Assembly (NCBI GenBank): GCA_018266795.1
Contig: JAFDZV010000052.1
Coordinates: 1-52,071 of the forward strand
DNA length: 52,071 bases
Direction: 5' to 3'
From: Bacteroidota bacterium
GTDB lineage: Bacteria > Bacteroidota > Ignavibacteria > OLB7
Part shown: piece by piece, positions 13,784 through 31,585 of the stretch
Position numbering within the stretch: the first letter of the stretch is position 1
How the letters are laid out: the number at the start of each line of letters is the position of its first letter
Made by a program: the position numbers and the translations under genes
Notes under the pieces: generated by a model
What the model saw: the letters and a program-made list of their open reading frames with translations, nothing else
Told to the model about the DNA's origin: nothing
The model's database searches: none

Positions 13784-14222
13784 CCCCATCCATCCCCATT
13801 ATCTGTAGAACGCCCCGGCAACGCTGTATCGTTGCCGGGGCGTTTCGCTTTCACCCATCCCGGCCCACGATGCGTATGTGCAGGCCGTTCAACGAGGTCC
13901 GGCGGTGACCCTGTGCGCGAGGCGTGCCTGCGGGGAATGAAACGGCGAGAAGAGTCCGCGGCTTCCTCCCCTCGCGAAACGCGGCCTGAAAGGTTCTGCA
14001 TGGAGATGACTGTGAACGTTGTTCGTGCAATGTCCCTGCAATCGACGGGTTGACAGGGCAAACGTACGGCACCCGGCCCGCCTCCGGAAGCCCGACGTTG
14101 TACGCATGCAGGCAGCGGAGGGCCATCCGCACGCGTAACGCCCCGGGCATCGCAGCGTGTGCAGCCTGATCGGCCGGTGCCAACCGACGGCGCCGGCATT
14201 CATATCGGCGAGGGAACGAACA
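13784..14222. other. Intergenic region after clpX
   Basis: 439 bp. It begins with the clpX terminator (13809-13844). The rest has no ORF with a plausible ribosome site or recognisable product; it should contain the promoter of the nucleotidyltransferase gene, which I cannot pinpoint. Confidence 0.5.
13809..13844 (+). terminator. Terminator hairpin after clpX (15-bp stem)
   Basis: AACGCCCCGGCAACG pairs perfectly with CGTTGCCGGGGCGTT across CTGTAT, followed by TCGCTTT. It lies 25 bp after the stop codon of clpX. Confidence 0.9.
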
Positions 14223-15026
14223 ATGGAGAACGAGCGGAGAGAACGAATACGGGAACGCCTCCTGCGCCTGGAACATGAGGAACAGGTTCGCATCATTCAT
14301 GCATGCGAGTCCGGGAGCAGGGCATGGGGGTTTCCCTCGCGCGACAGCGACTACGATGTGCGATTCATCTACGTGCGCGGGCGCGACTGGTACCTCTCGA
14401 TCGATGCGGCCGTTGCGCGCGACGTGATCGAGCTGCCGATCGACGACATTCTGGATATCAACGGCTGGGATCTCCCGAAGGCGCTGCGCCTGCTCCGCAA
14501 GTCCAACCCTCCGCTGCTGGAATGGCTCTGTTCGCCGATCGTCTACCGGACGCATGGCCCGCTGGTGGAACGGCTGCGCGCCATGGTGCCCGCCTATTAT
14601 TCCCCCAGGGCCTGCGCATACCACTATCTCCATATGGCCGAGGGAAACTCCCGTGCCTATCTGCAGGGAAGGACGGTATCGCTGAAGAAGTACTTCTACG
14701 TGCTGCGTCCGTTGCTTGCGATTCGGTGGATCGAGGAGGACCGGGGCGTTGCGCCGATCGAGTCTCAGCGCCTGGTGGAGACGATGCTGGAGCCGGGTGA
14801 GCTGCGCGACGCGATCGAACAGCTTCGGCAGAAGAAACTCGTGGATGTCGAGCTGGGAACGGGCCCGCGCATTCCAGCCATCAGCAGCTTCATCGAGAGC
14901 GAGCTTGCCCGCCATGCCAACGGCCTTCGCGTGACGCGGACGCCGGAGCGAGACAACGATGACCTGAACGCGCTGTTCCGGGAGGCGATCGAAGCGGCGT
15001 GGAGCCAGCCGTCCGCGGAAGCATAG
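14223..15026 (+). CDS. RlaP/YcgL-type predicted nucleotidyltransferase
   Basis: Protein of 267 aa in the DNA polymerase beta nucleotidyltransferase superfamily (COG3541-like). The active-site pattern is clear: GSRAWGFPSRDSDYDVRFIY (about residues 32-51), that is G-S followed by S-D-x-D with a further acidic residue later. The C-terminal helical part (HLAEGNSRAYL-like, LKKYFYVLRPLLAIRW) matches the same group, members of which occur with RNA-repair genes (RlaP) but also alone. Here it is alone, so the nucleotide and target are unknown. The ATG at 14223 follows GAGGGAACGAACA. A 14-bp hairpin follows the stop codon. Confidence 0.85.
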   Translation: MENERRERIRERLLRLEHEEQVRIIHACESGSRAWGFPSRDSDYDVRFIYVRGRDWYLSIDAAVARDVIELPIDDILDINGWDLPKALRLLRKSNPPLLEWLCSPIVYRTHGPLVERLRAMVPAYYSPRACAYHYLHMAEGNSRAYLQGRTVSLKKYFYVLRPLLAIRWIEEDRGVAPIESQRLVETMLEPGELRDAIEQLRQKKLVDVELGTGPRIPAISSFIESELARHANGLRVTRTPERDNDDLNALFREAIEAAWSQPSAEA

Positions 15027-16137: not shown

Positions 16138-16237
16138 GAGGTCAAGTCCTGTGCGACCATGTCGTACCCAATCCCGTCAGGTCCGGAAGGAAGCAGCGGT
16201 CAGTATTGGCAGGTGCGACACAGTTCAGCTTGACCTC
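16138..16237 (+). ncRNA. ffs: Small signal recognition particle RNA (4.5S type)
   Basis: A hairpin RNA of about 100 nt binding Ffh for co-translational membrane targeting. The universally conserved tip is present: GTCAGGTCCGGAAGGAAGCA (16177-16196), with the GGAA tetraloop and the AGCAG asymmetric side. The outer ends GAGGTCAAG (16138-16146) and CTTGACCTC (16229-16237) pair perfectly and are followed by a T-tract (TTTTTATTT) acting as terminator. There is no Alu domain, so this is the short bacterial form. Confidence 0.95.
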
Positions 16238-16246
16238 TTTTTATTT
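16229..16246 (+). terminator. Intrinsic terminator of ffs
   Basis: The closing stem of the SRP RNA followed directly by TTTTTATTTG; the only clear T-tract terminator in the window that belongs to an RNA gene. Confidence 0.7.
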
Positions 16247-16601: not shown

Positions 16602-19600
16602 ATGAAGAAAGAGATAGTTATTAACGCGACCTCGAGCGAGATCCGCGTTGCCATTACCGAGGACGATCGTCTTGCAGAAATTTTCCTCGAAGTTCCCGAC
16701 AAAGAGCGCCATGTAGGCTCCATCTACCTTGGACGCGTCGAACGCGTGGTGCAGGGAATGAATGCCGCGTTCATCGATATCGGTGAGCCGCAGGATGCGT
16801 TTCTCCATTTCTCGGATGTCGGATCGGCGCTCGATGAGTTCAAGGATCTGCTGGACGAGCGCGATGAGGATGACGAGGATGATCAGGATGCGGCCGACGA
16901 GAAGGCCGCCCCGCGAAAGAACGGAAAGGCCGTACCTCCGGGCGATAAGAAGTCCGGCGGCGACGCCAGAAAGAAAGATTCCAACCGCCACGACCGTCGC
17001 GGCCGCGAGCCGCACGATACCGAAAGCACAGGCGAGCGCACCGATGAGGTTGCGCACGGAACGCAGCAGTCCGGACATGCCGAGCCGCTCGACAAGTCCG
17101 CACGCCGCAGTGGTAAACCCGAACCCGGACGCGACGGGCGCAGAGGCGACGAACGCCGAACGGACGAGCGGCGAAGCGATGGACGCCGCACTGGAGATGC
17201 GGACGATGCCGAGGGCTCACGCCGCCCCGACACCGCACCGGACGGTCGCAGACCCGCCGGGCGCGATATGCGCGTTGGCGAGAGCCGCCGGCACGATGAA
17301 CATGAGGAGCCGGACGAGACCGATGGCGAATTGATCGAGGGTGCTGACCCCACGCAGACGGGCGGCGAGGACGGATCGGAGGAACCCAAGCGGCGCAAAC
17401 GCAAGCGCGGACGCCGTGGCGGCCGCGGGCGCAATCGCCGTCGCGACTCGGAGACTCCGGCCGAGGGGTCGCACGAGGAGCCGGAGGGAGAGGAGCGCGA
17501 AGGCGAAGCCGATGGCGATGATGACGCCGCCGCGCGCCGACAACCGGCAGCCGAAGGCGGGCGCGGTGACAACGACCGCGGGCGCGGGCACCGTAATGAA
17601 CCTCCCCGGCACGAACGTGCCGACGCCGGAGACGATGACGATGATGATCGCGAGCAGGATGACGATGACGATCGGGAAGATGGCGCAGGGCATGCCGACG
17701 GCGACGACGATCGTCAGGATAACAGCGAGCAGGGACGCGAAGGCCGCCGCCGGCGGCGTGGACGCAGGGGGGGCAGGAATCGCCGCAAACGCGGAGGCGA
17801 AAACGAACGGCAGGACGGCACGCAGCAGATAGCGACGGACGCTCCACAGCAGCAGGCCGCAGGGAGCGGACGATCCGGTGAGGAACGGCGCACGGATGAC
17901 AGACGGCATCCCTCCGACCGCGATCAGCGCAATGATTCCGGACGCCGCCACGAGGGCGGCGCTCGCGATGGCGCTCGCAGCAGCGGACCCGATCGGGAAG
18001 GGCGCCCGGCACCGGAGTCTCGCCCGCATTCGGACGAACGGCACAGCACCCCGCGGCGCGAGGTTGCCGATCGCGGGCACGAATCCGCCGAGAGCCGTGG
18101 AACGGAACGAGCCGAGCACCGCACGCAGGAGACGAGCCGCACCGGCGGCGAACGCCGCGAGCACGATCGTACAGAGACACCGCAGGGCGCCGAGGCTGAA
18201 CAGATCCCCGCCCGCGCACCGCACCGCGGCAGGCAGGCGGCGGAGAGCCCCGAAGGGGATGCGGCCGCACCGAAGAAGCGCGGCGGATCGCGACGCAAGG
18301 AAGCACCCGTACCAGGCGAGAGCGGTCCGGCTGCGGACGAGGCCGGCGCCGGGAAGGAATCTGCGCCGAAGAAGACTGCGAGCCGGTCCGCGAAGAAGGC
18401 GGCGGCGCCGCGCGCCAAGCGCGGCCGGGCCGGAGACGACGACGTGAAGGGCTCCACGGTTGATGCCAAGCTTCCGACGTTTCAGACGAAGCGTTCCGGC
18501 GAGGTTACCATCGCTCTGGAGAAGGGACAGGATGTCATCGTACAGGTGACGCGTGAGTCGTACGCATCGAAGGGCGTGCGCGTCACCACGAAGGTGAGCC
18601 TCCCCGGCCGATTCCTGGTGTTGCTCCCGCTCGATCCCGCAATCGGCATCTCGCGCAAGGTTCAGAACATGAAGGAACGCCGGCGCCTGCGCCGGATCGC
18701 CAAGAGCATTCTTCCCGAGGGGCATGGATGCATCATCCGCACGGTTGCGCAGGACAAGGATGAGGAGGTGATCAAGCAGGATCTCATGAAGCTGATCGAG
18801 ACCTGGCGCGAGATCGAACAGAAGCTGAAGGTGAACGAAAAGCCTACCCTCCTCTACAAGGATCAGTCCATCGCCAACACAGTGATGCGCGATCTGTTCA
18901 CACCGGATACCAACCGGGTGGTGATCGACAACAAGGCGCTCTACAAGGAGATCCGCGACTACGTGGAGTGGGCGGCGCCCGGGCTTGCGGACAAGGTTGA
19001 GCTGTACACCGGATCGCGGCCCATCTTCGACGAGTTCAACATCGAGCGCGAGATCCAGAAGATCGCCGATCGCCGCGTGTACATTCCTTCCGGCGGCTAC
19101 GTGATCCTGGACCAGACCGAGGCGATGATGGTGATCGACGTGAACTCCGGCCGCTACGCGGGCAAGAAGGATCAGGAGCTGAATTCGCTTCGCACCAACC
19201 TGGAGTCAGCCCGGGAGATTGCCCGGCAGATCAGGCTGCGTGATATCGGCGGGCTGCTGGTGATCGACTTCATCGATCTGTACGACGAGAAGAACCGAAA
19301 GAAGGTCTACGACGAGCTGAAAAAGGAAATGCGCCGCGACCGCGCGAAGTCCGTGGTGCTGCCGATGACGCAGTTCGGCCTGGTGCAGATGACACGCCAG
19401 CGCATCCGCCAGCAGGTTGTGCAGACGATGTCGGAGCCGTGCCCGATCTGCTCCGGCAGCGGACTCGTACAGTCCAAGAGCACGGTTGCACGCAACATCG
19501 AACGCTGGCTGCAGCGCTTCAAGGAAGGCTCGCGCGAGTTCCGGCTCACCCTCACCGCAAATCCGATGATCATCAACTACCTCACAGAGGGAGAGATGAG

Positions 19601-21122
19601 CCGGCTTACGCGGATGATGCTGAAGTACTTCGTACGCATCAAGGTGGTGCCCGACGAGTCGCTTCCGGTATCGGACTTCCGTTTCTTCTCCACCAGGCTT
19701 CAGGCCGATATCACGGAGAAGTTCGCCGAGGATCCGAATGCCCGCAAGAAGGAGGAGAAGGCGCGCAAGCTGGAAGCCAAGAAGGAGGAGGCGCGCAAGG
19801 AGGAGGAACGACGCGAGGCGTCGGGTCGCGAAGGCGATGAGCGCGGTGAAGCGCGGGAGAAGCGCGGCCATGGCGACCGGAAGGAGCGCGGCGAACGTTC
19901 CCTGCGCGATGAGCGCAATGGACACGAGCAGCGCGACAACAGAAAGGATCGCGCTCCGCAGACCGGAACCGCTCGCGAAGGTGAACGTCGTGATACCGAA
20001 CGCCGCGACCGGAACAAACGGGACGGTGAACGGAGCGGCGGCCACGAGCCGAATGCGCACGGCGAGCGCGGCGACCGGCAGAAGGGCCAGCATCGCCACG
20101 GCGAGCCGCCGCAGAAGGTCGAGCGCCGGGCCGACGAGCGCCGAGGCGATGAACGGAGGAACGAGAGCCGCCGCGACGAGGGCCGCGGTGATGACCGTCG
20201 AAGCGACGGCCGCAGGCATGACGAGCATCGAGGTGAGAAGCGCACGCACGACGATGCGCATGCGGGCGAACGCAGAACCGACGAACAACGCAGAACCGAC
20301 GAGCGCCGAGGCGACGGGAGGCGCGGCTCTGAACCGCGCGCGGCCGAACCACGCGGCGCCGGGCCGAGAAGTGACGAGCCGCGGGGCGAACGGCGCGGCG
20401 ATGAGAGACGAGGCGGTGAACGGCGCTCCGATGAACGGAGAAGCGGCCAGCACCACGGTGATGCCCGCCGCGCGGGGGGACCGAATGCCGGCGAGCGACG
20501 GGAGGATGCGGCACGGAATGACCAACGGGACAGTCGGCGTCCGGAGGGACGACCGGAGGAGCGGCGCAACGAAGGCCGGCGACCGGAACGGCGGCACGAA
20601 GGGCAGGAAACGGCGGCGCATGGCGCCGATCAGCCCGCGGCCCGCGGCGATGGCGGTCCGCGCCGGACGCCTGAGCGGCCGGAACGCAGCGTACCGGCGG
20701 TAGAACCGGCACAGACGGAGCAGGCAGCCGCACCGGCGACGCGGAAGAGCACGCGACGTACGCCGGCACCCCGCAAGGGCAGTCACGAGGCGCAGCAGGT
20801 GCTGCCGCTGATTGCACCGGCCCACGACGGTACGGCGGCCGCAGCTTCGGATGAGCAGGCACCGGCAACTCGCGCTCCGCGAAAGGGACGGACTGCTTCA
20901 ACCGCATCGGCAGGCCGCACGAAGCCCATGCCGGCCGAGGGCGCCGCCGTGGAACCGCAGGCAGAGCCGGCACCGCGTCCGAAGCGGCAACCGCGCCGCA
21001 CGGCGGCACCGGAAGGAACCGCTCCGGAGCCCGCAGCCGGCGGCGAAGCGGAACCGAAGACTCGAAAGGCGCGTGCGCCGCGCCGAAGCAAGCCATCAGG
21101 AGATGGCGCCGGCAGCGAGTAG
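16602..21122 (+). CDS. rng: Ribonuclease E/G, giant form with two disordered regions
   Basis: Endoribonuclease of 1506 aa for mRNA decay and rRNA processing. Conserved parts: an N-terminal RNase H-like start (KKEIVINATSSEIRVAITED) and the first half of the S1 domain (GSIYLGRVERVVQGMNAAFI) to about residue 83. A charged low-complexity insertion covers about residues 84-620; the second half of S1 follows (about 623-670), then the 5' sensor and DNase I-like catalytic region with Asp846 (VIDVNSGRY) and Asp889 (LVIDFIDL), spaced 43 apart as in E. coli Asp303/Asp346. The Zn-link is CPIC (Cys947, Cys950). From about 1045 a second disordered tail runs to the end. Both disordered parts share RRxDERR-type motifs. 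Typical RNase G is about 500 aa. No frameshift is needed. Confidence 0.95.
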   Translation: MKKEIVINATSSEIRVAITEDDRLAEIFLEVPDKERHVGSIYLGRVERVVQGMNAAFIDIGEPQDAFLHFSDVGSALDEFKDLLDERDEDDEDDQDAADEKAAPRKNGKAVPPGDKKSGGDARKKDSNRHDRRGREPHDTESTGERTDEVAHGTQQSGHAEPLDKSARRSGKPEPGRDGRRGDERRTDERRSDGRRTGDADDAEGSRRPDTAPDGRRPAGRDMRVGESRRHDEHEEPDETDGELIEGADPTQTGGEDGSEEPKRRKRKRGRRGGRGRNRRRDSETPAEGSHEEPEGEEREGEADGDDDAAARRQPAAEGGRGDNDRGRGHRNEPPRHERADAGDDDDDDREQDDDDDREDGAGHADGDDDRQDNSEQGREGRRRRRGRRGGRNRRKRGGENERQDGTQQIATDAPQQQAAGSGRSGEERRTDDRRHPSDRDQRNDSGRRHEGGARDGARSSGPDREGRPAPESRPHSDERHSTPRREVADRGHESAESRGTERAEHRTQETSRTGGERREHDRTETPQGAEAEQIPARAPHRGRQAAESPEGDAAAPKKRGGSRRKEAPVPGESGPAADEAGAGKESAPKKTASRSAKKAAAPRAKRGRAGDDDVKGSTVDAKLPTFQTKRSGEVTIALEKGQDVIVQVTRESYASKGVRVTTKVSLPGRFLVLLPLDPAIGISRKVQNMKERRRLRRIAKSILPEGHGCIIRTVAQDKDEEVIKQDLMKLIETWREIEQKLKVNEKPTLLYKDQSIANTVMRDLFTPDTNRVVIDNKALYKEIRDYVEWAAPGLADKVELYTGSRPIFDEFNIEREIQKIADRRVYIPSGGYVILDQTEAMMVIDVNSGRYAGKKDQELNSLRTNLESAREIARQIRLRDIGGLLVIDFIDLYDEKNRKKVYDELKKEMRRDRAKSVVLPMTQFGLVQMTRQRIRQQVVQTMSEPCPICSGSGLVQSKSTVARNIERWLQRFKEGSREFRLTLTANPMIINYLTEGEMSRLTRMMLKYFVRIKVVPDESLPVSDFRFFSTRLQADITEKFAEDPNARKKEEKARKLEAKKEEARKEEERREASGREGDERGEAREKRGHGDRKERGERSLRDERNGHEQRDNRKDRAPQTGTAREGERRDTERRDRNKRDGERSGGHEPNAHGERGDRQKGQHRHGEPPQKVERRADERRGDERRNESRRDEGRGDDRRSDGRRHDEHRGEKRTHDDAHAGERRTDEQRRTDERRGDGRRGSEPRAAEPRGAGPRSDEPRGERRGDERRGGERRSDERRSGQHHGDARRAGGPNAGERREDAARNDQRDSRRPEGRPEERRNEGRRPERRHEGQETAAHGADQPAARGDGGPRRTPERPERSVPAVEPAQTEQAAAPATRKSTRRTPAPRKGSHEAQQVLPLIAPAHDGTAAAASDEQAPATRAPRKGRTASTASAGRTKPMPAEGAAVEPQAEPAPRPKRQPRRTAAPEGTAPEPAAGGEAEPKTRKARAPRRSKPSGDGAGSE

Positions 21123-27757: not shown

Positions 27758-28138
27758 ACCGGCAGGCGGCATTGAACCGGCAACTGGCCGCGCGCCTCCT
27801 GGGCCGGATTCACTCGCAAATGCCTGAGCCCGCTCACTCATTCGTTCGCCCGTACGATGTACCTGCCCACCGGTACGATGATTTTTCTTCGGCGCTGCAA
27901 CTAATGTGCGCCGGATGGTTTGTTGCTGATGCCGGGATTCGTTCTTGGCAAAATGCCGACGGAGCAGTAGCATGTGCGGGTTCGACGATTCCCTTCACCA
28001 ACGCATCACGCCAGTACGGCGCGAACCGTTGGTGAAACTCTGCTCGCAACCTCACGGCCCCTTCCGCACCCCGTACATGGGCTCGCTCCCGGTTTCCTGT
28101 TGTTCAAGTACTCTCCGATCATCTCTGGACTCTCAGTC
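27758..28138. other. Intergenic region between moeA and the UnbV gene
   Basis: 381 bp. It starts with a short direct repeat (TTGAACCGGCA twice, near 27754-27784). It contains GGCAAAATGCC (about 27948) and the nested hairpin 27994-28036. No convincing gene. Confidence 0.5.
27994..28036. promoter_or_regulatory. Nested inverted repeat upstream of the UnbV gene
   Basis: TTCACCAACG (27994-28003) pairs with CGTTGGTGAA (28027-28036), and inside it CGCC/GGCG (28009-28012, 28018-28021) can pair. It may be a moeA terminator, a regulator site or a leader structure; the sequence does not decide. Confidence 0.55.
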
Positions 28139-31100
28139 ATGCGCAAGTACCTCCGTCTCGCTCTCGCTCTGATCCCTGTCTCGGCAGTGTGCCTCGGCAC
28201 GGTTGCCGCGCAGCCGGCCCAGAAACTCTTCGAGCTCCTTCCGCCGTCGAAGACCGGCATTCACTTCGCAAACAACATCACCGAGTCCGAACAGTACAAC
28301 GGTGTCAGCTACACCAACGCGTACAACGGCAGCGGCGTTGCAGCCGGAGACGTAAATGGCGACGGGCTTGTGGACCTGTTCTTCACCGGAACCCAGGTCA
28401 CAAACCGGCTCTACATCAACAAGGGGAACTGGCAGTTCGAGGATGTCACCGTGAAGGCCGGCGTTGCGGATTCGGCCGGCGTGGGGCGGGGCGCGGTAAT
28501 GGTGGATATCGACGGCGATGGCGATCTGGATATCTACGTCTGCCGCATCAGCCATCCCAACCGTCTCTACATCAACAATGGCGACGGTACGTTCACCGAT
28601 CGCGCCAAGGAGTACGGCCTGGACTTCAGCGGTCACAGTGTGCAGGCGGCTTTTCTCGACTATGATGGCGACGGCGATCTGGACATGTACCTGACGCTTA
28701 CCGGCGCCGGCCTTGGCGAGTACTACGCACGCTACGGCCAGAACGACCGCCTGTTCCGAAACAACGGAGACGGCACGTTCACCGATGTGACCAAGGAGGC
28801 CGGCATCGTTGACCAGGGCTACGGCATGAATGTGCTGGCAACGGACATCAACGACGATGGATGGCCGGACATCTATGTTTCGAACGACTTCGAGGAACAG
28901 GACAAGGTCTACCTCAACAACAGGAACGGCACGTTCACCAACATTCGCGGCCGTGTGATCCGGCACATGAGCCATTCCTCCATGGGATGCGACGCAGCGG
29001 ACTTCAACAACGACGGCCACATCGACATCGTGACTCTGGACATGCTGGCGCGCGATCACACGCGCGAGATGAAGCTCTCGGCGACGCTTTCGGTGTTGAG
29101 CCCCATCTTCGACTCCGCTCAGGTGCCGCGCAATACACTGCAGTTGAATCGCGGCAACGGGTTGTTCAGCGACATCGCCGGCATTGCCGGCGTGGACGCT
29201 ACGGACTGGAGCTGGCCCGCGCTCTTCGCCGACTACGATCTGGATGGCTACAAGGATCTGTTCATCGGCAACGGGATGAAGCGCGACATGACCGATCGCG
29301 ATGCATCCTATCGCGTGGTGCCGGGAACCACGAAGATGGACCTGATCAAACTGTTCCCACAGAACCCGCTTTCGAGTTTCTGTTTCCGGAACAATCACGA
29401 TCTGACATTCAGCGACAGTTCGAGTGCATGGGGATTCGGCGGCAAGTACTTCTCCTTCGGCGCGGTATACGCCGATCTTGACAACGACGGCGATCTGGAT
29501 CTGGTGGTCAACACGGAGGATACCACGGCCCTTGTCTACCGCAACAACGCGGTGGAGCAGCATCGCGGACACTATCTCCAGATTCAGCTGGACGGCACCG
29601 GAAAGAACCGGTTCGGCCTGGGTGCGCGTGTCGAGCTGCGAACCGATGGGAAGTATCAGATGCTGGAGCAGTCGCCGGTACGCGGCTACCTTGGCTGCGT
29701 GGAGCCGAGGCTTCACTTCGGCCTGGGCGCGGACACGGTTGTCGGCGAGCTGAAGGTCAGATGGCCCGGAGGCAAGGTGCAGCGCCTGTACAACGTGCAC
29801 GCCGATCAGGTGATCACACTCCATGCACGCGATGCGGTTGCCGATACGGCGAAACCCGTGTCTCCTCCCACGCCCATCTTCACCATGCTGGATCCCTCCA
29901 AGTGCGTGGCCTACTCGCATCAGGAGAATCTGTACGACGATCTGAAGCGGGAGCGCCTGCTGCCGCGCCGCATGTCGGAGAACGGACCGGGCATGGCTGT
30001 TGGAGATGTTAACGGCGACGGCCTCGAAGATATCTACGTTGGCGGCGCCGCCGATTACAAGGGGCACATCCTGCTGCAGAACCCGAACGGAAAGTTCACG
30101 CTCTCCGCGGACAGCGCCGTGATCGGCAGGGACTCCGCATCGGAGGATATGGGAGCTCTCTTCTTCGATGCCGACGGCGACGGCGATCTGGATCTGTACG
30201 TGGTCTCGGGCGGAAGCGAGTTCGACAACTACTCCCCCGATCTCCAGGACCGCCTCTACATCAACGACGGAAAGGGCCACTTCACCAAGTCGTCCGGCGC
30301 AATCCCTGCGGAGACCACGAGCGGCTCCTGCGTTGTTGCGGCGGACTACGACGGCGATGGCGATCTGGATCTGTTCGTTGGCGGCCGTCTGGTGCCGGGG
30401 CACTATCCGCTGCCGGCAGCCAGCGCAATCCTGCGCAACGACGGCGGCAAGTTCACCGACGTTACGTCGCAGGTATGCCCGGCGCTGAGCAAGCTCGGCC
30501 TTGTATGCTCCACCATCTGGACAGACTTCGACAACGACGGCAAACTGGATCTGATAACCACCGGTGAGTGGATGCCGGTACGCTTCTTCCACAACGACGG
30601 TGATCACTTCACCGAGCTGCACAACACCGGTGTGGACTCCATTCGCGGATGGTGGAACAGCATCGCGGCCGGCGATTTCGACAACGATGGCGACATGGAC
30701 TACATCATCGGCAACGTGGGCGACAACTGGCGCTACAAGCCGTCGCAGGATGCGCCGCTGAAGCTGTATGCAGCGGACTTCGACGGCAACGGCTCCATCG
30801 ATCCCCTCATTACCTACTACGACCGGGCCTACAAGAAGGAGTTCCCGATGTTCGACCGCCTGCGGTTGAACTCGCACATGCCGAAGATCCAGGGAATGTT
30901 CAAGACGTTCTCGCAGTTCGCATCGGCCACGATCAACGACATCATCCCGCGGGCCAAGCTGGACACGGCCTACACGTTGTCCGCCACGGAATTCCGAAGC
31001 TGCTATCTGGAGAATCTGGGCAACGGCAAGTTTGCCATGCATCTGCTTCCGCAGATCGCGCAGATCTCTCCGGTGTTCGGCATCGCCGTGGAGGACTACG

Positions 31101-31585
31101 ACGGCGACGGCAACCTGGACGCGATTCTCACCGGCAATTTCTTCGACGGTCCGGAGCCCACCGTGGTGCGCTACGATGCGAGCTGGGGTCTTGTGTTGAA
31201 AGGAGACGGCAAGGGGAACTTCACGCCCCTCTCGCTGGAGCAGAGCGGCATGGTCGTCAACGGCGACTCGCGCGGTGTCGGCCTGCTGCGTCTCGGCAAG
31301 GGAGTGAGCACCAGGCTGTGCGCGATGGTGGTGAACAACTCCGGCCCGCTGCAGGCATTCCAGGTGGACGTGGCGGCGAACAAAGGCAAGCTCTGGACGC
31401 TGGACCGCGGCATGCATGCCACGCATGCCATCATCACCTTGAAGGACGGGCGGAAGCGGCGCTTCGAGTTCCAGACCGGCAGCGGCTATCTGACGCAGAG
31501 CTCGCCGACGCTTATCGTGACCCCCTCCTTCGAGTCCATGACCGTATACAACGGCAACACCGTTGTCAAGGAAGTGAAGTTCTGA
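28139..31585 (+). CDS. Exported FG-GAP/VCBS repeat protein with ASPIC/UnbV domain
   Basis: Secreted protein of 1148 aa, CRTAC1/RNA-binding-UnbV type, of unknown biochemical role. A signal peptide (MRKYLRLALALIPVSAVCLG ... AAQ, about 25 residues) is followed by calcium-binding-like repeats of the form DxDGDGxxD (for example DVNGDGLVDLFF, DIDGDGDLDIYV, DYDGDGDLDMYL). An ASPIC/UnbV domain lies at about 477-562 (GLGARVELRTDGKYQMLEQS, then SP-V-GYLG and FGLG). A second propeller block covers about 610-1000. The end carries a degenerate UnbV-like strand (RFEFQTGSGYLTQSSPTLIV). No T9SS tail is evident. The ATG at 28139 starts the signal peptide. It is convergent with the metalloprotease gene, with a 21-bp hairpin between. 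Confidence 0.88.
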   Translation: MRKYLRLALALIPVSAVCLGTVAAQPAQKLFELLPPSKTGIHFANNITESEQYNGVSYTNAYNGSGVAAGDVNGDGLVDLFFTGTQVTNRLYINKGNWQFEDVTVKAGVADSAGVGRGAVMVDIDGDGDLDIYVCRISHPNRLYINNGDGTFTDRAKEYGLDFSGHSVQAAFLDYDGDGDLDMYLTLTGAGLGEYYARYGQNDRLFRNNGDGTFTDVTKEAGIVDQGYGMNVLATDINDDGWPDIYVSNDFEEQDKVYLNNRNGTFTNIRGRVIRHMSHSSMGCDAADFNNDGHIDIVTLDMLARDHTREMKLSATLSVLSPIFDSAQVPRNTLQLNRGNGLFSDIAGIAGVDATDWSWPALFADYDLDGYKDLFIGNGMKRDMTDRDASYRVVPGTTKMDLIKLFPQNPLSSFCFRNNHDLTFSDSSSAWGFGGKYFSFGAVYADLDNDGDLDLVVNTEDTTALVYRNNAVEQHRGHYLQIQLDGTGKNRFGLGARVELRTDGKYQMLEQSPVRGYLGCVEPRLHFGLGADTVVGELKVRWPGGKVQRLYNVHADQVITLHARDAVADTAKPVSPPTPIFTMLDPSKCVAYSHQENLYDDLKRERLLPRRMSENGPGMAVGDVNGDGLEDIYVGGAADYKGHILLQNPNGKFTLSADSAVIGRDSASEDMGALFFDADGDGDLDLYVVSGGSEFDNYSPDLQDRLYINDGKGHFTKSSGAIPAETTSGSCVVAADYDGDGDLDLFVGGRLVPGHYPLPAASAILRNDGGKFTDVTSQVCPALSKLGLVCSTIWTDFDNDGKLDLITTGEWMPVRFFHNDGDHFTELHNTGVDSIRGWWNSIAAGDFDNDGDMDYIIGNVGDNWRYKPSQDAPLKLYAADFDGNGSIDPLITYYDRAYKKEFPMFDRLRLNSHMPKIQGMFKTFSQFASATINDIIPRAKLDTAYTLSATEFRSCYLENLGNGKFAMHLLPQIAQISPVFGIAVEDYDGDGNLDAILTGNFFDGPEPTVVRYDASWGLVLKGDGKGNFTPLSLEQSGMVVNGDSRGVGLLRLGKGVSTRLCAMVVNNSGPLQAFQVDVAANKGKLWTLDRGMHATHAIITLKDGRKRRFEFQTGSGYLTQSSPTLIVTPSFESMTVYNGNTVVKEVKF

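Follow-up and report, generated by a model that had tools for sequence, protein, structure and literature searches.

A large disordered and charged insert within the S1 domain of RNase E in an order of Bacteroidota

The window analysed here is the whole 52,071 nt of contig JAFDZV010000052.1 (assembly GCA_018266795.1), from a Bacteroidota bacterium of the class Ignavibacteria and the order OLB7. It carries an rne/rng-type gene for a member of the RNase E/G family, and the features of the gene are listed in Table 1. No other RNase E/G gene was found in the 5.97 Mb genome, and the ORF at 16602–21122 is thus the sole copy. A bacterial small SRP RNA gene (16140–16238, + strand) precedes the start codon of RNase E by approximately 360 bases in the same orientation, and a few genes upstream of RNase E there is a gene for RlaP, an RNA repair pathway nucleotidyltransferase (PF10127, E 1.7e-87; 14157–15026, + strand). 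Elsewhere in the window, the gene for a 1203 aa FG-GAP/UnbV_ASPIC protein (27974–31585, + strand) is covered over nearly its whole length by an antisense frame of 1097 aa (28133–31426, − strand), for which no Pfam match was obtained and which is probably explained by high GC content.

Table 1. Features of the RNase E/G gene and its product in the window
Feature	Residues	Position	Strand	Remarks
rne/rng-type gene, RNase E/G	1506 aa	16602..21122	+	ATG start; single copy in genome
N-terminal RNase H-like strands and first S1 half	1–77	16602..16832	+	Strands 41–50, 55–59, 66–69; F57, F67 conserved
Disordered insert in S1 loop after third S1 strand	78–620 (~543 aa)	16833..18461	+	Short helix 77–85, then pLDDT <50
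Acidic insert start	81–100	16842..16901	+	Net −11 per 20 aa; common to short class loops
Arg-rich microdomain KRRKRKRGRRGGRGRNRRR	263–281	17388..17444	+	Acidic blocks either side
Second Arg-rich microdomain GRRRRRGRRGGRNRRKRGG	381–399	17742..17798	+	After acidic block 341–360 (net −13)
Conserved LPTFQTKRSG hairpin and second S1 half	621–672	18462..18617	+	Strands 644–651, 660–662; K657 invariant
RNase_E_G catalytic region (5' sensor, RNase H, DNase I parts)		18597..19403	+	Pfam PF10150; Asp846 at 19137, Asp889 at 19266
CPIC zinc-link cysteines and small thioredoxin-like domain PF20833	947–950, domain to ~1032	19440..19697	+	
Disordered C-terminal tail with RRxDERR repeats	1046–1506	19737..21119	+	This genome only

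The protein scored 339.7 bits against PF10150 (cut-off 25.5) and 477.3 bits against TIGR00757 (cut-off 325.95), which places it in the RNase E/G family. The Pfam matches were RNase_E_G at residues 666–934 (E 1.6e-101) and RNase_E_G_Thio at 946–1027, and the match to S1 was restricted to the first half of that domain, residues 38–85. Two narrower assignments were excluded by score, namely the equivalog for E. coli-type RNase E (NF008074, 258.5 bits with a cut-off of 908) and that for RNase G (NF008689, 372.9 bits with a cut-off of 594). The catalytic aspartates (D846 and D889) and the CPxC zinc-link (CPIC at 947–950) of RNase E/G are present, and in an alignment of 83 sequences Asp846, Asn848 and Asp889 were invariant and P948 nearly invariant. 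In the S1 domain, F57 and K657 were invariant and F67 nearly so in the same alignment; we take F57, F67 and K657 to correspond to the E. coli S1 RNA contacts F57, F67 and K112. An initial sequence-only reading of this locus had considered the enzyme to be intact, and we agree. Residues 1–77 and 621–1045 make up one normal catalytic domain, and the gene product is probably an intact, active RNase E.

A phmmer comparison with E. coli RNase E (2bx2) gave two separate blocks, with residues 3–74 of the query matching 9–81 of the chain and residues 637–1029 matching 99–494. Between the blocks, E. coli has only residues 82–98, approximately 20 residues, where the window protein has approximately 560. 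Homology stops after approximately residue 77 and picks up again at approximately 621, leaving an insert of about 543–558 aa, depending on the boundary chosen. The sequence-only reading had put approximately 540 residues inside the S1 domain, which is borne out, from residue 84, which is a little late as the start is at approximately 78. When residues 1–1045 were modelled with AlphaFold2 using 83 homologues, pLDDT was approximately 93–97 for the greater part of the two S1 halves and of the catalytic core, and approximately 36–49 over residues ~90–622, where no structure was predicted beyond the short helix at the start of the insert. In the model the two S1 halves fold together, with three S1 strands before the insert and two after it. 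Structures of isolated S1 regions aligned with the model straight across the insert. For the E. coli S1 domain (1sn8, 80 residues), 78 residues aligned within the range 39–673 of the model (Z 10.7, rmsd 2.2). For the Caulobacter fragment comprising S1 and the 5' sensor (4oxp), the alignment covered 172 residues in the range 35–756 (Z 20.6, rmsd 2.2). Thus, a single complete S1 domain is built from both flanks, in keeping with the earlier proposal that a charged, disordered insert splits it. The model and the structural alignments rule out an S1 domain that lies wholly on one side of the insert. The second S1 half is preceded by an LPTFxTKRSG hairpin (residues 621–636; 18462–18509), to which AlphaFold gives two extra strands. 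This hairpin is common to the order and, as variants, to several families of the class (f6, f14, f15 and f22), and it is not found in others.

The insert is made up of 18% Arg, 13% Asp, 12% Glu and 13% Gly, and includes two aromatic residues in 550. Its charge is arranged in alternating acidic and Arg-rich blocks, as in scaffold and BR-body regions, with net charges per 20 aa of −11 (residues 81–100), −10 (231–250), +12 (261–280), −10 (291–310), −13 (341–360) and +11 (381–400). Charge segregation exceeded that of shuffled sequences (z 4.0). The two basic peaks coincide with the microdomains KRRKRKRGRRGGRGRNRRR and GRRRRRGRRGGRNRRKRGG, and RRGRRG-type motifs occur four times in the insert compared with 0.29 times in shuffles, none of 500 shuffles having as many. 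Short degenerate repeats aside, no sign of an origin by tandem duplication was detected in the insert or the tail.

The sequence-only reading had also described a second disordered part that runs to the end of the protein and is of the same kind as the first. The extent is as described, and the 461 aa tail contains no F, W or Y. Together, the insert and tail account for approximately two thirds of the protein. The likeness in kind is partial. R[RK]x[DE]R[RK]-type motifs, the DERR repeats, occur seven times in the tail compared with 0.68 times in shuffles (0/500 as high), but the RRGRRGG microdomain and the large charge blocks are missing, and the tail does not have the block design of a scaffold or BR-body region. 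The tail is also unique to the window genome, as the other members of the order end 3–27 residues past the same point. As these four of the five members are almost tail-less, they have no long disordered region other than the insert.

When related genomes were searched for the two disordered parts, as the sequence-only reading had proposed, the tail was found in one of the five genomes of the order and the insert, at the same site, in all five. These genomes represent one family and three genera, and the identity of the catalytic part among them goes down to 70%. Measured between conserved blocks, the inserts are 558 (window), 661, 556, 576 and 374 aa. One of the five is a public metagenome-assembled genome of the same genus as the window, 'Chlorobiota bacterium RYN_334' (JAQBOZ010000008.1). 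All five have the same gene order, rne-dxr-rseP-surE. In two genomes of another genus (G003 and G004), the inserts are 64% identical with a dN/dS of 0.30, compared with 0.018 for the catalytic part, and the indels that separate them are multiples of three, apart from one 14 + 7 pair. We conclude that this insert is translated and under weak purifying selection. A frameshift, a chimeric assembly or a mobile element fused into the gene could in principle have produced such a protein, but an open frame at one site in five genomes, including JAQBOZ010000008.1, the conserved gene order and the in-frame indels rule out an assembly or frameshift artefact, and we regard an artefact of any of these kinds as extremely improbable.

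Composition differs between the genera, with R/D/G/E predominating in the window insert, S/K/E in G002 and Q/A/P in G003 and G004. Charge segregation is stronger in G003 and G004 (z 7.8–8.5), and the insert of G001, like the window tail, showed none beyond that of shuffles. The Arg-rich microdomain has been kept more widely. Near-identical motifs are found in the same-genus insert (RKRRRKRGRRGGRGRNRRR) and in the G003 and G004 inserts (KKKKRRRGRRGRG), and the RRGRRGG motif is absent from the G002 insert. Outside the order, a near-identical motif (KRRRGRRGGRGRNR) is present in a remote family, f59. In all, the RRRRGRRGGRGR-type microdomain occurs in four of the five inserts of the order and in f59, and a similar one occurs in family f54.

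In other families of the class, the position of the insert is occupied by a loop of 38–131 aa, which nearly always opens with an acidic run and often ends in arginines. The window insert also opens with an acidic run (−11 over residues 81–100), and it looks like the extreme growth of a pre-existing short, acidic-to-basic class loop that follows the third S1 strand. For the phylum, 24 further genomes were followed up from a frame-length listing of at least approximately 150 rows, and the examples they gave are occurrences rather than a frequency estimate. Inserts at the same site were found in f33 (285 aa), f54 (597 aa), f55 (264 aa) and f59 (410 aa). When the catalytic parts were compared in a maximum-likelihood tree, the members of the order grouped as a clade (support 100/99) far from all four of these families. 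The well-supported branches require an insert of at least 200 aa to have been gained or lost at least three times, one of these changes involving Methylobacterium (248 aa insert), which the tree places among long branches. Judged from these sequences, at least one separate large S1 expansion (264–597 aa) is present elsewhere in the phylum, and the giant insert of f54 is independent of that in the order. The f54 RNase E (L100, G254) combines its 597 aa S1 insert, which consists of degenerate KPKRTRSRxKKK and acidic repeats, with a 148 aa tail. A different arrangement was seen in f36, f52 and f57 (L050, L071, L072, L073, L074 and L076), where disordered C-terminal tails of 387–448 aa accompany ordinary S1 loops of 52–55 aa; these enzymes also exceed the 503–570 aa listed for Bacteroidetes/Chlorobi (PMC3071783).

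S1 inserts as such are not new. The sequence-only reading had stated that the disordered scaffold of known RNase E is exclusively C-terminal, but this is incorrect. Voss et al. 2014 (PMC4245959) described S1 inserts of approximately 50–150 aa in alphaproteobacteria and plants that are highly diverse, charged and predicted to be disordered. An insert of approximately 50 aa in Wolbachia was termed typical of alphaproteobacteria (PMC5436854), and the classification review of Ait-Bara and Carpousis 2015 is cited there for inserts of that length. In Caulobacter, the S1/5'-sensor fragment that bears the insert binds the helicase RhlB, and a helix of the insert with Asp129, Glu131 and Glu132 protrudes into the RNA channel, for which RNA mimicry was proposed (PMC4245959). 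Deletion of the S1 insert in Arabidopsis was reported to lower activity (cited in PMC4245959). Thus, the site, the charge and the disorder of such inserts are already known. The insert of the order is, in the model and in sequence, a charged, disordered insert at the position found in Caulobacter crescentus RNase E (4OXP; PMC4245959), beside the RNA channel, where the Caulobacter insert is likewise charged and disordered or partly so. It falls outside the length range described, with 374–661 aa compared with approximately 50–150 aa reported for alphaproteobacteria and 142, 163 and 248 aa measured by us in three of them. S. meliloti was left out of these measurements, as the same frame did not yield its N-terminal S1 half. 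The 248 aa insert of Methylobacterium bullatum (L097) itself exceeds the range in the literature. Alphaproteobacterial enzymes also carry a long C-terminal scaffold, which is missing in four of the five members of the order. Plant chloroplast RNase E shares the presence of an S1 insert and differs in that its inserts are within 50–150 aa, a comparison made by description rather than by sequence. With the RNase G-like enzymes of Bacteroidota, the enzymes of the order share the catalytic family and, in members of the class, the 38–131 aa acidic-to-basic precursor loop, but those enzymes are usually only ~520–600 aa in total.

The design of the insert recalls a region found elsewhere in RNase E. 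Like the Proteobacterial C-terminal scaffold or BR-body disordered region (PMC10412687), it is disordered with alternating charge blocks and Arg-rich microdomains, but it lies inside S1 and not after the catalytic domain, and partner motifs are known for the Proteobacterial region. Motifs like RRGRRGG are present in alphaproteobacterial C-terminal tails, in Methylobacterium (RRRRRGRRGGRGRDR) and Sinorhizobium (KRKRRRRGKRGGRR), and the Methylobacterium tail has a RRRRRGRRGGRGR motif similar to that of the insert. In Nonomuraea gerenzanensis (L107), a long non-catalytic extension includes a similar Arg/Gly-rich microdomain (RRRRRRGGRGRGK), but this 600 aa extension precedes S1 and the S1 loop is only approximately 16 aa. 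The KRKRGRRGGRGRNRRR microdomain of the insert thus resembles, at the level of motifs, one in alphaproteobacterial C-terminal tails and one in an actinobacterial N-terminal extension. As these motifs are simple Arg/Gly strings, convergence is a safer reading than common descent. No name for the RRGRRGG motif came out of a literature search, which returned a single, unrelated match. New with respect to PMC4245959, PMC3071783 and PMC5436854 are the size (374–661 aa) and the lineage, and also, as far as sequences reveal, the separate expansion in the phylum (264–597 aa) and the acidic/Arg-rich block design with its microdomain.

What the insert does is a matter of weighing several readings. A surface loop in S1 may simply be a site where slippage can grow low-complexity sequence harmlessly, with no job beyond solubility. 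The strongly different compositions between genera, the far faster evolution of the insert than of the enzyme (dN/dS 0.30 versus 0.018) and the degenerate DERR-coding repeats in the DNA are all consistent with this. However, at least 374 aa have been kept in 5/5 genomes despite deep divergence, the insert is under purifying selection, four of the five share the Arg-rich microdomain with remote families, and the site has been expanded repeatedly. We therefore consider harmless growth unlikely, though not negligibly so. An autoinhibitory gate, in which the acidic stretch just behind the third S1 strand acts as an RNA mimic over the channel until released by the basic parts or a partner, would match the helix and RNA mimicry proposed in Caulobacter (PMC4245959), the short helix that AlphaFold places at 77–85, and the acidic run that opens every loop in the order and most of those in the class. 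Such a gate would account for only the first approximately 30 residues, which are already present in loops of 40–100 aa, and not for growth to 374–661 aa, and it seems improbable as an explanation of the whole. We give a similarly low chance to an insert whose main role is to bring a DEAD-box RNA helicase to the catalytic domain. Caulobacter RhlB does bind the S1 and 5'-sensor fragment containing the insert (PMC4245959), and alignment of the model with 4oxp puts the two inserts at the same site, but the Caulobacter insert is far shorter and charge is the only likeness in sequence.

The reading we prefer, to which we give about an even chance, is that of an intact RNase E in which the class loop has grown into a disordered arm of 374–661 residues that serves as a degradosome- or condensate-type scaffold and RNA tether. 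Caulobacter BR-bodies have been attributed to Arg-rich charge blocks in the disordered C-terminal region, together with RNA and acidic blocks (PMC10412687). As this design is present in the window insert, and as four of the five members of the order have no other long disordered region, a scaffold in the S1 loop is the most economical explanation, and by analogy we infer that the arm does the job of the Proteobacterial C-terminal scaffold. The Arg-rich blocks would hold RNA beside the S1/5'-sensor channel, attraction between blocks of opposite charge would bring several tetramers together in BR-body-like condensates, and short motifs within the arm may be docking sites for partners, for example PNPase or a DEAD-box helicase. 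The tail specific to this species would supply more of the same. In favour of a scaffold, all five genomes of the order encode PNPase. Against it, all five also encode RNase Y, and RNase E may therefore not be the main decay enzyme and need not be the only initiator of decay. The drift in composition between genera, the lack of RRGRRGG in G002 and of charge segregation in the G001 insert and the window tail also count against it, as does the fact that no known partner-binding motif was identified in the insert. The suggestion in the sequence-only reading that the insert could form RNA- or partner-binding bristles next to the active site is thus upheld for the presence of a disordered, charged insert beside the substrate channel, and its binding role is plausible. 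More tentatively, and in our view less likely than not, the order may represent a third scaffold layout, beside those of Proteobacteria (scaffold after S1) and Actinomycetota (before it), with a phase-separating Arg-rich region inside S1 that arose repeatedly in a phylum believed to be scaffold-less, and with condensation physically coupled to cleavage via RNA-binding arms beside the active site.

In bacteria, RNA decay and condensates are organised by RNase E scaffolds, which textbooks put after the catalytic domain in Proteobacteria. The kind of feature seen here has been described before, and for the specialist the points worth testing are its size, its repeated expansion and the shared microdomain. 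An earlier survey, from 2011 (PMC3071783), reported Bacteroidetes/Chlorobi enzymes of 503–570 aa, without a scaffold, and predicted no degradosome from this size. If the S1 arm is a scaffold, degradosome-like RNase E would extend to lineages of Bacteroidota that this survey scored negative on size, and the position of the scaffold would not be fixed by mechanism. The same kind of Arg-rich microdomain would then lie before, inside or after the enzyme according to phylum, making a clean test of what a scaffold requires possible.
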